Below, one piece after another: positions 38,969 to 54,391 of a DNA stretch of 64,000 bases (position 1 is its first letter; each line of letters begins with the position of its first letter). The notes under the pieces are model-generated. The model did not search any database. It saw only the letters and a list, made by a program, of their open reading frames with translations, and was not told where the DNA came from. The DNA lies in assembly GCA_015059545.1 (NCBI GenBank), contig SVAG01000001.1, positions 1 through 64,000 on the forward strand, given 5' to 3'. A program made the position numbers and the translations under genes. Origin of the DNA: Lactobacillales bacterium (lineage in GTDB: Bacteria > Bacillota_I > Bacilli_A > RF39 > UBA660).

Positions 38969-39190
38969 AAAAAAAAATTACTCCCAAATTAAGGGCGTAA
39001 TTACGCGATACCACCTTATTCATAACTAAAAAGTTACCTCGATCATTTAACGCATGCATACGTCTTAATTTACATATCAATTAAGAGGTTCAGGAGCCAT
39101 TCGAAATATAATTAGTATATCTAGCTTTCACCTTACCTAGACTCTCTATAAAACAATTATATTTTTCTTTCCATCAAAACCTTTAAACGC
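38969..39190 (-). ncRNA. T-box riboswitch, probably methionine-specific
   Basis: The leader has all the T-box hallmarks on the - strand: AGAGAGTCTAGGTAAGGTGAAAG in stem I (39123-39146 region), the T-box AAGGTGGTATCGCG (39004-39017) that pairs with an uncharged acceptor end, and a terminator ATTACGCCC/GGGAGTAAT with a T run (about 38969-38999). The likely specifier is the AUG at 39098-39100, in CGAAUGGCUCC after the stem I pairing AAATATAATT/AATTATATTT. AUG agrees with metG as the second gene downstream. Uncharged tRNA(Met) would allow transcription of dut-metG. Confidence 0.88.
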
Positions 39191-39194
39191 CATA

Positions 39195-39223
39195 ATTGTA
39201 TCACAAAATATTTTAATCTTCAA
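39195..39223 (-). promoter_or_regulatory. Promoter of the T-box dut-metG operon
   Basis: TTGAAG (39218-39223) and TACAAT (39195-39200) are 17 bp apart. The -35 box lies inside the last codons of the spoVT-like gene. Confidence 0.65.
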
Positions 39224-39737
39224 GATATTTTGACAAAAAAATAGACGAGATATTAAATATCTTAGTATCTATATCTTTTATTTCTTTTTCATTATAAAAA
39301 ATTACAAGTCCATTTATATCTCCATTAACATTTATTAAATTTATATTATAATAACAATCTATTTCAAAATCTTCTGTTATTTTTAATTTGTTTTTATCAT
39401 TTATAGATTTTCTGTCTTTTATATACTTAATTAAATTATTACTTATTTCTTTATTTATTACTTCTTTTTTATTATTACCAACTGCCGCAATTACTTTATC
39501 TGTATCTGTTACTACTATATTATATTTATATGAAGAATAAATTGAATCTATAAAAGTTTGAACAAAATCTTTTATATTTTTTACATTTGAATATTTTTTT
39601 AATATTATTTTTTCTTCTTCATCTATATATATTTCTATATTTTCTCCTTCATTAATTTTTAGTTTCTTTCTTATTTCTTTTGGAATAACAATTCTACCTA
39701 ATTCATCAATTCTTCTAATTATTCCAGTTGCTTTCAT
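39213..39737 (-). CDS. SpoVT/AbrB-like transition regulator
   Basis: The 174-residue protein starts with an AbrB-type swapped-hairpin DNA-binding domain (MKATGIIRRIDELGRIVIPK, EIRKKLKINEGE). Residues from about 55 to 170 form a GAF-like domain, the arrangement and length of SpoVT. In B. subtilis SpoVT modulates sigma G genes in the forespore. Nearby mfd matches the B. subtilis pth-mfd-spoVT order. The ligand of the GAF part is unknown, and the presence of this gene alone does not show that the organism forms spores. Confidence 0.85.
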   Translation of the reverse strand: MKATGIIRRIDELGRIVIPKEIRKKLKINEGENIEIYIDEEEKIILKKYSNVKNIKDFVQTFIDSIYSSYKYNIVVTDTDKVIAAVGNNKKEVINKEISNNLIKYIKDRKSINDKNKLKITEDFEIDCYYNINLINVNGDINGLVIFYNEKEIKDIDTKIFNISSIFLSKYLED

Positions 39738-39781: not shown

Positions 39782-39809
39782 TTTATACCTTTTTTATATA
39801 ATGTGTAAA
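39782..39809 (-). promoter_or_regulatory. Predicted promoter of the spoVT-like gene
   Basis: TTTACA (39804-39809) and TATAAA (39782-39787) are 16 bp apart. The -35 lies within a cluster of TGTAAA repeats (39804, 39813, 39825 on the + strand), which may be operator sites. Confidence 0.5.
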
Positions 39810-39855
39810 GAGTGTAAAATTTGATGTAAAGTGTATACAAAATACATTTTTTTAA

Positions 39856-39884
39856 TTGACTAGTAATTTTTGATGTTATAAAAT
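39856..39884 (+). promoter_or_regulatory. Promoter of the 42-residue microprotein gene
   Basis: TTGACT (39856-39861) and TAAAAT (39879-39884) are 17 bp apart on the + strand. It diverges from the spoVT-like promoter across the TGTAAA repeat cluster. Confidence 0.65.
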
Positions 39885-39920
39885 TAAAATAACAAAAGAG
39901 ATAGAAAGAAGGTATTATTT

Positions 39921-40049
39921 ATGATAAGAAGAGACGATTCAATGAGATCATTCAGATTAGAAAAACCAAAAAACCCAGTAGGAAGACCAGCAATTAAAAG
40001 AAGTTTCAAACTTTGTGATGACGTTCCATCATTCAAAATGTGTAAATAA
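39921..40049 (+). CDS. Orphan 42-residue basic microprotein with AT-hook-like core
   Basis: This 43-codon frame starts with ATG at 39921, preceded by AAGAAGG about 9 nt upstream, a good promoter and followed by a strong terminator. The product begins MIRRDDSMRSFRLEKP and continues KNPVGRPAIKRSFKLCDD, ending SFKMCK. The NPVGRPAIKR segment resembles the GRP core of an AT-hook, which binds the minor groove of AT-rich DNA. Charge is strongly positive; two cysteines stand in the last third. It is the only + strand gene left of the origin. I know no family for it. Confidence 0.75.
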   Translation: MIRRDDSMRSFRLEKPKNPVGRPAIKRSFKLCDDVPSFKMCK

Positions 40050-40050
40050 T

Positions 40051-40080
40051 AAAGAGTAGTTTATAACTACTCTTTTATTT
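40051..40080. terminator. Bidirectional terminator
   Basis: AGAGTAGTT and AACTACTCT form a perfect 9-bp stem flanked by AAA and TTTT on both sides. It serves both the + strand microgene and the convergent PHP gene. Confidence 0.85.
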
Positions 40081-50905: not shown

Positions 50906-50921
50906 TGTTTCACGTGAAACA
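50906..50921. other. Canonical palindromic parS site
   Basis: TGTTTCACGTGAAACA is a perfect 16-bp palindrome and equals the published Spo0J/ParB consensus TGTTNCACGTGAAACA. It lies immediately at the stop codon of tadA, between it and dnaX. A cognate ParB is encoded at 26.6 kb. Confidence 0.92.
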
Positions 50922-51350: not shown

Positions 51351-51366
51351 TATAATCACCTACAAA

Positions 51367-51444
51367 AAAAGCACACACACTTAGAGGTTCTTAAGGCTGC
51401 TATCTTCCGATTCTGACCTGGTTCAAACATAAATGTTGTGCTTT
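51367..51444 (-). ncRNA. ffs: Signal recognition particle RNA, small bacterial type
   Basis: The - strand carries GAACCAGGTCAGAATCGGAAG and then ATAGCAGCC, the conserved domain IV with the GGAA tetraloop and the asymmetric loop bound by Ffh. The 5' end AAAGCACA pairs with TGTGCTTT at the 3' end, which merges into a T run acting as terminator. The length of about 78 nt is the short 4.5S-like form without an Alu domain, shorter than the B. subtilis scRNA. It lies next to tadA and dnaX. Confidence 0.93.
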
Positions 51445-51448
51445 AAAT

Positions 51449-51477
51449 AATATACATTATTATTAAATAAATTGCAA
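51449..51477 (-). promoter_or_regulatory. Promoter of the SRP RNA gene
   Basis: TTGCAA (51472-51477) and TATATT (51449-51454) are 17 bp apart, placing the start at the 5' end of the RNA. The -35 ends only 14 bp from the edge of the parS array. Confidence 0.7.
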
Positions 51478-51491
51478 TTATTATTTATTAA

Positions 51492-51880
51492 TATTTTACG
51501 TAGAACATTGTTTTATATTTTATTCTAATGTTTCACGTGGAACATTGTTTTATTCTTTATTCTTATGTTTCACGTGGAACATTGTTTTATTTTTTTATTC
51601 TTATGTTTCACGTGGAACATTGTTTTATTATTTATTCTTATGTTTCACGTGGAACATTGTTTTATTCTTTATTCTTATGTTTCACGTGGAACATTGTTTT
51701 ATTTTTTTATTCTTATGTTTCACGTGGAACATTGTTTTATTATTTATTCTTATGTTTCACGTGGAACATTGTTTTATTCTTTATTCTAATGTTTCACGTG
51801 GAACATTGTTTTATTTTTTTATTCTTATGTTTCACGTGGAACATTGTTTTATTCTTTATTCTTATGTTTCACGTGGAACA
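51492..51880. repeat. Tandem array of parS sites (10 identical copies plus 1 decayed)
   Basis: TGTTTCACGTGGAACA occurs, without any change, at 51529, 51566, 51604, 51641, 51678, 51716, 51753, 51790, 51828 and 51865. The reverse complement, TGTTCCACGTGAAACA, fits the ParB consensus TGTTNCACGTGAAACA exactly. A degenerate copy (TATTTTACGTAGAACA) at 51492 keeps the spacing. The period is 37 or 38 bp. The AT-rich spacers of 21-22 bp come in three types used in the order ABC ABC A'B A, so a 112-bp unit of three sites was duplicated. The array fills the gap between gyrA and ffs. It is expected to be the main ParB loading centre near the origin; this is inference from the sites. Confidence 0.93.
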
Positions 51881-51885
51881 TTGTA

Positions 51886-51915
51886 TAAAAAAAGTAATGT
51901 TATTTAAACATTACT
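51886..51915 (-). terminator. Terminator of the gyrase operon
   Basis: AGTAATGTT and AACATTACT form a 9-bp stem with a 5-nt loop followed by seven T on the - strand. It separates the gyrB-gyrA transcript from the parS array. Confidence 0.85.
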
Positions 51916-51925
51916 CATTATTTTC

Positions 51926-54391
51926 TTATTCTTCTACTGCAGTTTGTTCAATTATTTCATTATTTTCTTCTGGTTCTTCTTCTTGATGTTCAATTATAGC
52001 TACATTACTTACTGTTTGATTATCTTTTAGATTAATTAATCTAACACCTTGAGCAACTCTTCCTGTAGTAGAAATTTGTGATATAGGTAATCTTATAATA
52101 ATTCCATTATTAGTTATAATCATTAAATCTTCGTCACCATTTATTATTTTAAATGATACTATATTACCATTTTTTTCAGTAACATTTAATGCTTTAACTC
52201 CTTTACTTCCTCTATGAGTTTGACGATATTCTTCTACATTAGTTTGTTTTCCATATCCTTTTTCAGTTACTACTAATACATTTTGATCTTGTTCTGCAAT
52301 TTCACAACCTACACAGATACCATCACCAATATTTATACCTCTAACTCCTGAAGCTGTTCTACCCATTATTCTTATTTCAGATTCTTCAAATCTAATCATT
52401 CTACCATTTGAAGCTCCTATGATAATATTTTTATTTCCATCTGTTTTCTTAACAGAAATTAACTTATCATCTTCTTTTAATGTAATAGCAATCTTACCAT
52501 TTTTTCTAATACTATCAAATTCTGATATATTAGTTCTCTTAATTAATCCATTTTGTGTACAAAATACAATAAATTGATTATTATCTTCTCTTTCAATAGA
52601 AAGCATTGCTGTTACTGTTTCATCCTTTTCTATTGGAAGTAAATTAATTATAGGTAATCCTTTAGATTGTCTACTAAATTCAGGTACTTCATAACCTTTA
52701 ATCTTATATACTTTTCCTCTATCAGTAAAGAATAATATATAATCATGAGTTGTCATAGATATTAAGTTTTTAACAAAATCTTCTTCATTTGTTGTCATTC
52801 CTTTAATACCTACACCACCTCTATTTTGAGTTTTATAAGTTTCATTATTTACTCTTTTTACATATCCTTTTTCAGTTAGTGTAATAATTACATTTTCTAC
52901 TGGAATCAATGATTCATCTTCAATATATTCAATTGAAGTCATATCTATATTAGTTTTTCTTTCAGTAGCGTATCTATCTTTTATTTCTAATAATTCTTCT
53001 TTAATTACATTTAGAATTTTTTCATCACTTGATAAAATATCTTTTAAATGAGCTATTAATTTATTTAATTCTTCTATTTCATTTAATATTTTATCTTTTT
53101 CTAATCCTGTTAATCTTCTTAATTTCATTTCAAGAATAGCTTCTGATTGAACTTCATCTAAATTAAATCTAGACATTAATTGTTGTTTTGCTATTTCATC
53201 AGTTTTTGATTCTTTAAGAATTTTAATAACTGCATCTATATTATCAAGAGCAATTTTTAATCCATTTAAAATATGTACTCTATCTTCAGCTTTCTTTAAA
53301 TCAAATTTTGTTCTTCTTATAATTACTTCTTTTTGGAAATCAATATAATTTGAAATTATTGATTTTAATCCTAAAATTTGTGGAGTACCTTGATTTAACA
53401 TTAACATATTAATACCATATGATGTTTGTAATTGCGTATGTTTATATAAATTATTAAGTACTACATTTGGATTAGCATCTCTTTTAAGTTCAATAACAAT
53501 TTTTAATCCATCTGCAAATGATGTTTCTTCTCTAAGATCTGATATACCATCAATTGCTTTATCTCTAACAAGTTCTGCAATTCTTGTTATTAATGTTGAT
53601 GTATTAACTTGATATGGAACTTCTGTTATTACTAATTCAGCTCTATCTTTCTTTTCAATTATATCTACTTTACCACGTAAAGTTATAGTTCCTTTTCCTG
53701 TTTCATAAGCTTTTTTAATTCCACTATTTCCTAAAATAAATCCACCAGTTGGAAAATCCGGTCCTTTAATATGATTCATTAAACCTAATGTATCAATTTC
53801 AGGATTTTCTATGTAAGCTACACATCCATCTATTACTTCACCTAAATTATGTGGTGGAATATTTGTAGCCATACCAACTGCAATACCCATAGTACCGTTT
53901 ACTAATATATTAGGAAAACGGCTTGGTAATACTACTGGTTCTTCACGAGTTGCATCAAAGTTTGGTGTAAAATCTACTGTATTTTTCTTAATATCTCTAA
54001 CCATTTCCATAGCTATTTTTGATATTCTTGATTCTGTATAACGATAAGCAGCAGCTGTACTACCATCGATTGCTCCAAAGTTACCATGTCCATCTATTAA
54101 TGGATGACGATAACTAAAATCTTGTGCCATTCTAACCATTGCATCATAAACAGCTGTATCACCATGAGGGTGATAGTTACCGATAACAGCCCCAACTGTT
54201 TTAGCACATTTTACATATCCTTTATCTGGAGTGAATCCTGATTCTAACATTGTATGTAAAATTCTTCTATGTACTGGTTTTAAACCATCTCTTAAATCTG
54301 GTAAAGCACGTGCAATGATAACACTCATTGAATATTCAATAAATGAATCTTGCATTTCTTTTACTATATTATTTGCTTCTAATCTATCCAT
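51926..54391 (-). CDS. gyrA: DNA gyrase subunit A
   Basis: The 821-residue subunit cuts and rejoins DNA. It has the quinolone-resistance region [20 protein letters not shown] and the catalytic tyrosine in [11 protein letters not shown]. The C-terminal beta-pinwheel shows the repeated GYVKRV, GRMIRF-like blades and the gyrase box-like QTHRGSKG. The last 15 residues are acidic ([13 protein letters not shown]). It follows gyrB by 9 bp. Confidence 0.97.

Follow-up and report, generated by a model that had tools for sequence, protein, structure and literature searches.

A genus-restricted gene for a small basic protein divergent from a spoVT-like gene

Minor small acid-soluble spore proteins (SASPs) of sporeformers are short and basic, and their genes are monocistronic. 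The minor-groove hooks of bacterial DNA-binding proteins are built on a Q/RGR core, QGR in H-NS and RGR in Lsr2 (PMC6936261), and one small-protein catalogue, GMSC, lists 965 million smORFs (PMC11364881). Here we analyze a microprotein, MIRRDDSMRSFRLEKPKNPVGRPAIKRSFKLCDDVPSFKMCK, translated from an ORF in a stretch of 64,000 nucleotides from a Lactobacillales bacterium (contig SVAG01000001.1), hereafter the window (Table 1). Judged from its sequence and that of its homologues, it is a genus-restricted orphan small protein, with a conserved ORF, purifying selection and expression signals of its own, and was not found in the searches made outside this lineage.

Table 1. Positions of the features discussed, counted from the first nucleotide of the window.
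Feature	Position	Strand	Basis or remark
Microprotein gene, 42 aa, basic, ATG...TAA	39921..40049	+	ORF; homologues in 5/5 genus genomes; pN/pS 0.13 with nearest relative
Sigma-A type promoter, TTGACT-N17-TAAAAT	39856..39884	+	TTGAC and TAAAAT unchanged and aligned across five genomes
Shine-Dalgarno (SD) site AGAAGG, 8 nt before ATG	39907..39912	+	sequence; SD-like site before every homologue's ORF
Terminator, perfect 11-bp stem plus U tract	40051..40075	. (bidirectional)	also usable by the convergent PHP gene
TGTAAA direct repeats between spoVT and microprotein starts	39804..39838	.	five genomes share the pattern ATGTAAA...TGTA.A
SpoVT-like AbrB-family regulator, divergent neighbour	39213..39737	-	Pfam SpoVT_C 5e-20, MazE_antitoxin 1e-11
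T-box leader	38988-39186	-	Rfam RF00230, 99.5 bits
Bacterial small SRP RNA	51355-51452	-	Rfam RF00169
Tandem parS array, TGTTTCACGTGGAACA	51529-51880		ten identical perfect palindromes
Further parS site, TGTTTCACGTGAAACA	50906-50921		
dnaA	59405-60760	-	

The preliminary description had presented the gene as complete within exactly these boundaries, with promoter, SD site and perfect terminator, and all of these are present. Taken alone, the promoter pattern occurs at chance level (6 promoter-like sites vs. 5.9 expected). Despite this count, the site is convincing because all five genomes of the genus have ATTGAC and ATAAAAT, unchanged and in the same register, upstream of the microprotein gene, followed in each by an SD site and the ATG. 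Two such perfect-stem terminators were found, one per strand, vs. 0.0 expected from shuffles. The product had also been described as strongly basic, in agreement with a computed net charge of +7 and pI of 10.3 for the window copy; all six homologues are basic, with net charges of +6 to +10 and pI values of 10-10.8.

Within the window, whose GC skew has its turning point near 61 kb, the microprotein gene is indeed the only head-on gene left of the origin, as first proposed. The plus-strand ORFs of at least 100 aa left of dnaA either overlap longer minus-strand ORFs or result from read-through of a parS array (51528-51986). Among the intergenic plus-strand ORFs of 25-99 aa in these 60 kb, only the microprotein ORF is preceded by an SD-like site. 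It should be noted that the array itself, ten palindromes with a spacing of about 37 bp where none is expected by chance, is flanked by the SRP RNA and the 3' end of gyrA; a head-to-tail parS array so regular looks unusual.

A protein search of 98 genomes (its own plus relatives) detected the microprotein in all five genomes of the genus and in none of the rest. The best matches in the four other genus genomes (E 7e-10 to 1.5e-23) belong to proteins 50-93% identical to the window copy, with lengths of 42-47 aa across the family; a scan of GTDB contigs recovered those four relatives again, including MAGs from the rectum of water deer and from rabbit. One genome, G002, has tandem duplicate genes (L009 and L011, G002:C75:1611-1742 and 1854-1985), whose products share about 64% and 50% identity with the window copy; the second contains no cysteine, and its gene carries its own TTGACT-N17-TAAAAT and SD site. 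Among the six homologues, 17 residues are invariant: M1, D5, SMRSF (7-11), L13, E14, PVGRP (19-23), F29, L31 and F38.

Profile searches of 386 family genomes and of 395 class genomes, two partly overlapping sets, gave no microprotein relative above chance beyond the genus. Other genera gave matches with per-genome E values of 0.01-1, which is chance level when several hundred genomes are searched; these were rejected as divergent relatives. The most promising candidate, in G405 (NPVGRPKKK...KKSFKLNNN), lies in a protein of about 70 aa with a hydrophobic tail and without the N-terminal block, and the remaining weak matches are fragments or lack the pattern. A phage or plasmid origin was rejected, since tblastn found no relative in phages or plasmids at E<=5, no viral contig encodes one and the only PHROG match, for one of the six members, is insignificant (E 0.088). 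With no NCBIfam model at E<=1 and no significant match in the PDB, PHROGs or Pfam, the proposal of a family not yet described is upheld.

The gene shows purifying selection, as read from its codon changes. Between the window copy (G000) and its nearest relative (G001), synonymous changes account for 8.5 of 13, against a 19% share of the sites (pN/pS 0.13, binomial P about 0.001). Deeper pairs give pN/pS values of 0.35-0.83 with synonymous sites near saturation; outside the core, the protein therefore seems to evolve rather fast, and it is mainly the closest pair that supports the estimate of selection. The preliminary description had made its case depend on selection against nonsynonymous change and on persistence of the peptide in relatives that keep the surrounding genes; pN/pS is below 1, and relatives that share the neighbouring genes retain the peptide.

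In all five genus genomes, the gene adjoins the divergent spoVT, whose product in the window matches TIGR02851 at 4e-44, but below the equivalog cut-off, and mfd is close by. The latter directly adjoins the microprotein gene in G003 and G004, while a PHP-domain gene in G000 and G001, and another small gene in G002, lies between the two. Elsewhere in the family, several genera have an mfd-like C terminus (KHFIYYLIELL) directly upstream of spoVT and no microprotein; the mfd-spoVT pairing therefore appears older than the microprotein. We fetched 30 spoVT loci, 25 of them with a readable start: a divergent SD-preceded small ORF is present in the five genus genomes and absent in the other 20. From these gene orders, the mfd-spoVT gap is probably where the microprotein arose or was gained. 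On the far side of spoVT, a T-box leader precedes dut-like and methionyl-tRNA synthetase-like genes. The host genome keeps Spo0A and SpoIVA, and is thus probably that of a sporeformer.

The gene is probably well expressed, to judge by its codons. With log-odds for ribosomal-protein usage, the window copy scores +0.164 per codon, compared to -0.14 to +0.006 in 34 other genes, a value reached by none of 5000 draws from ordinary usage, though the sample is small (39 codons). The score is weaker in relatives (+0.076 in G001 and -0.023 in G003, the latter scored with the window's codon tables). The earlier view that its codon usage is that of highly expressed genes is thus supported in this genome, but AGA was wrongly taken as a marker: it is rarer in ribosomal genes than in others (0.58 vs. 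0.83), and TTC and GAC drive the signal.

Our best guess, offered tentatively, is that the microprotein, basic and intrinsically disordered, is expressed vegetatively and binds nucleic acid. The genus-specific gene, with its vegetative-type promoter, would yield a basic peptide of 42-47 aa, probably in quantity; contact with the minor groove of AT-rich DNA, or with RNA, would be made by the invariant PVGRP core plus nearby Lys/Arg, and partner binding or help in assembly would fall to the conserved S-M-R-S-F and F-x-L patches. The homologues in all five genomes, the invariant residues and the selection in the closest pair argue for a genuine genus-specific gene, and the ribosomal-protein-like codons of G000 together with the conserved sigma-A type promoter for a well-expressed one, although the codon bias is not seen in G003. 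Binding to nucleic acid is suggested by the high charge and pI of all six homologues, the invariant PVGRP, whose GRP partly resembles the Q/RGR core of bacterial hooks (PMC6936261), and the surrounding DNA of 20-32% GC, a plausible target for a minor-groove binder. An AlphaFold model from the six sequences has one short helical turn and is otherwise almost unstructured (pLDDT 64, pTM 0.14), which is consistent with disorder, a low pLDDT from six sequences being no proof of it.

Several observations count against this reading. The likeness to AT-hooks noted in the preliminary description extends to a GRP core in a basic peptide, but the R-G-R-P core is replaced by V-G-R-P, preceded by proline, in 6/6 homologues, and no Pfam family matches at E<=1, AT-hook models included, very short motif models being insensitive. 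The basic residues around GRP (NPVGRPAIK in G000) also shift position between homologues, and DNA binding does not explain the conserved SMRSF and SFKL patches. Of the abundant nucleoid- or RNA-associated peptide originally envisaged, a real, conserved and selected member of an undescribed family thus stands; the association with nucleoid or RNA is at best tentative, no fold or database relative pointing to a function. The bolder version, in which a nucleoid- or RNA-coating peptide of high abundance and recent evolution, with PVGRP as its variant hook, was born from intergenic DNA in a small-genome sporeformer, we regard as unlikely.

The main rival is a tie to SpoVT: the microprotein would partner the divergent regulator, modulate it or be one of its targets, and the TGTAAA repeats, a possible SpoVT operator, would be common to both genes. 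We consider this somewhat unlikely. The two genes stay divergent in all five genomes though the gene on the other side changes or is lost, the repeats between their starts are conserved, and SpoVT is probably in use because the host keeps Spo0A and SpoIVA. However, 32 other genomes carry spoVT without the peptide, the microprotein's own promoter is of sigma-A type, and the association may simply be gene order inherited within the genus.

Alternatively, the microprotein could act through short linear motifs, docking on a protein (enzyme, ribosome or polymerase) via its repeated SF-[RKH]-[LIM] patches (residues 10-13, 28-31 and 37-40), its charge being secondary. The invariance of the SMRSF block, F29, L31 and F38, stricter than that of most basic residues, speaks for docking, but the AlphaFold model shows neither strand nor helix at the last two patches, and we find this reading doubtful. 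A minor SASP-like forespore protein would fit a small, basic, monocistronic product encoded next to spoVT in a genome with Spo0A and SpoIVA; this is improbable given a conserved promoter of sigma-A rather than sigma-G type and no match to a known Ssp family (Pfam, NCBIfam, E<=1). A leader peptide was rejected because the gene has its own terminator and no co-directional gene downstream. Least probable is a chance ORF or a conserved RNA, as the shortness of the ORF and the AT-rich region might suggest: conservation of the frame in six copies and of the SD site, with the synonymous excess, speaks against the former, and a fold that is ordinary apart from the terminator (z -1.0), with no Rfam match at the gene, against the latter.

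As lineage-specific small genes go, this is a clean case, and one with the look of good expression; since it is clearly either present or absent at one fixed syntenic position, its origin could be dated. Should the microprotein truly bind nucleic acid, it would count as an architectural protein of very small size that uses a variant hook; for now, it is one orphan more in a very large set of uncharacterised small proteins. With the AT-hook and the hooks of H-NS and Lsr2 (PMC6936261), it shares a GRP core in a basic peptide and an AT-rich host, but has valine for the first core arginine, no H-NS or Lsr2 domain and only 42 aa. Like minor SASPs, it is short and basic and is encoded by a monocistronic gene in a genome with sporulation regulators, and it differs from them in its sigma-A type promoter and in matching none in sequence. 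The family is new to the libraries searched, yet taxon-restricted small proteins are very numerous: the orphans in GMSC (PMC11364881) and sORFdb (PMC11796252) are likewise under 50 aa, taxonomically restricted and free of annotated domains, and the microprotein differs from these only in its particular sequence.
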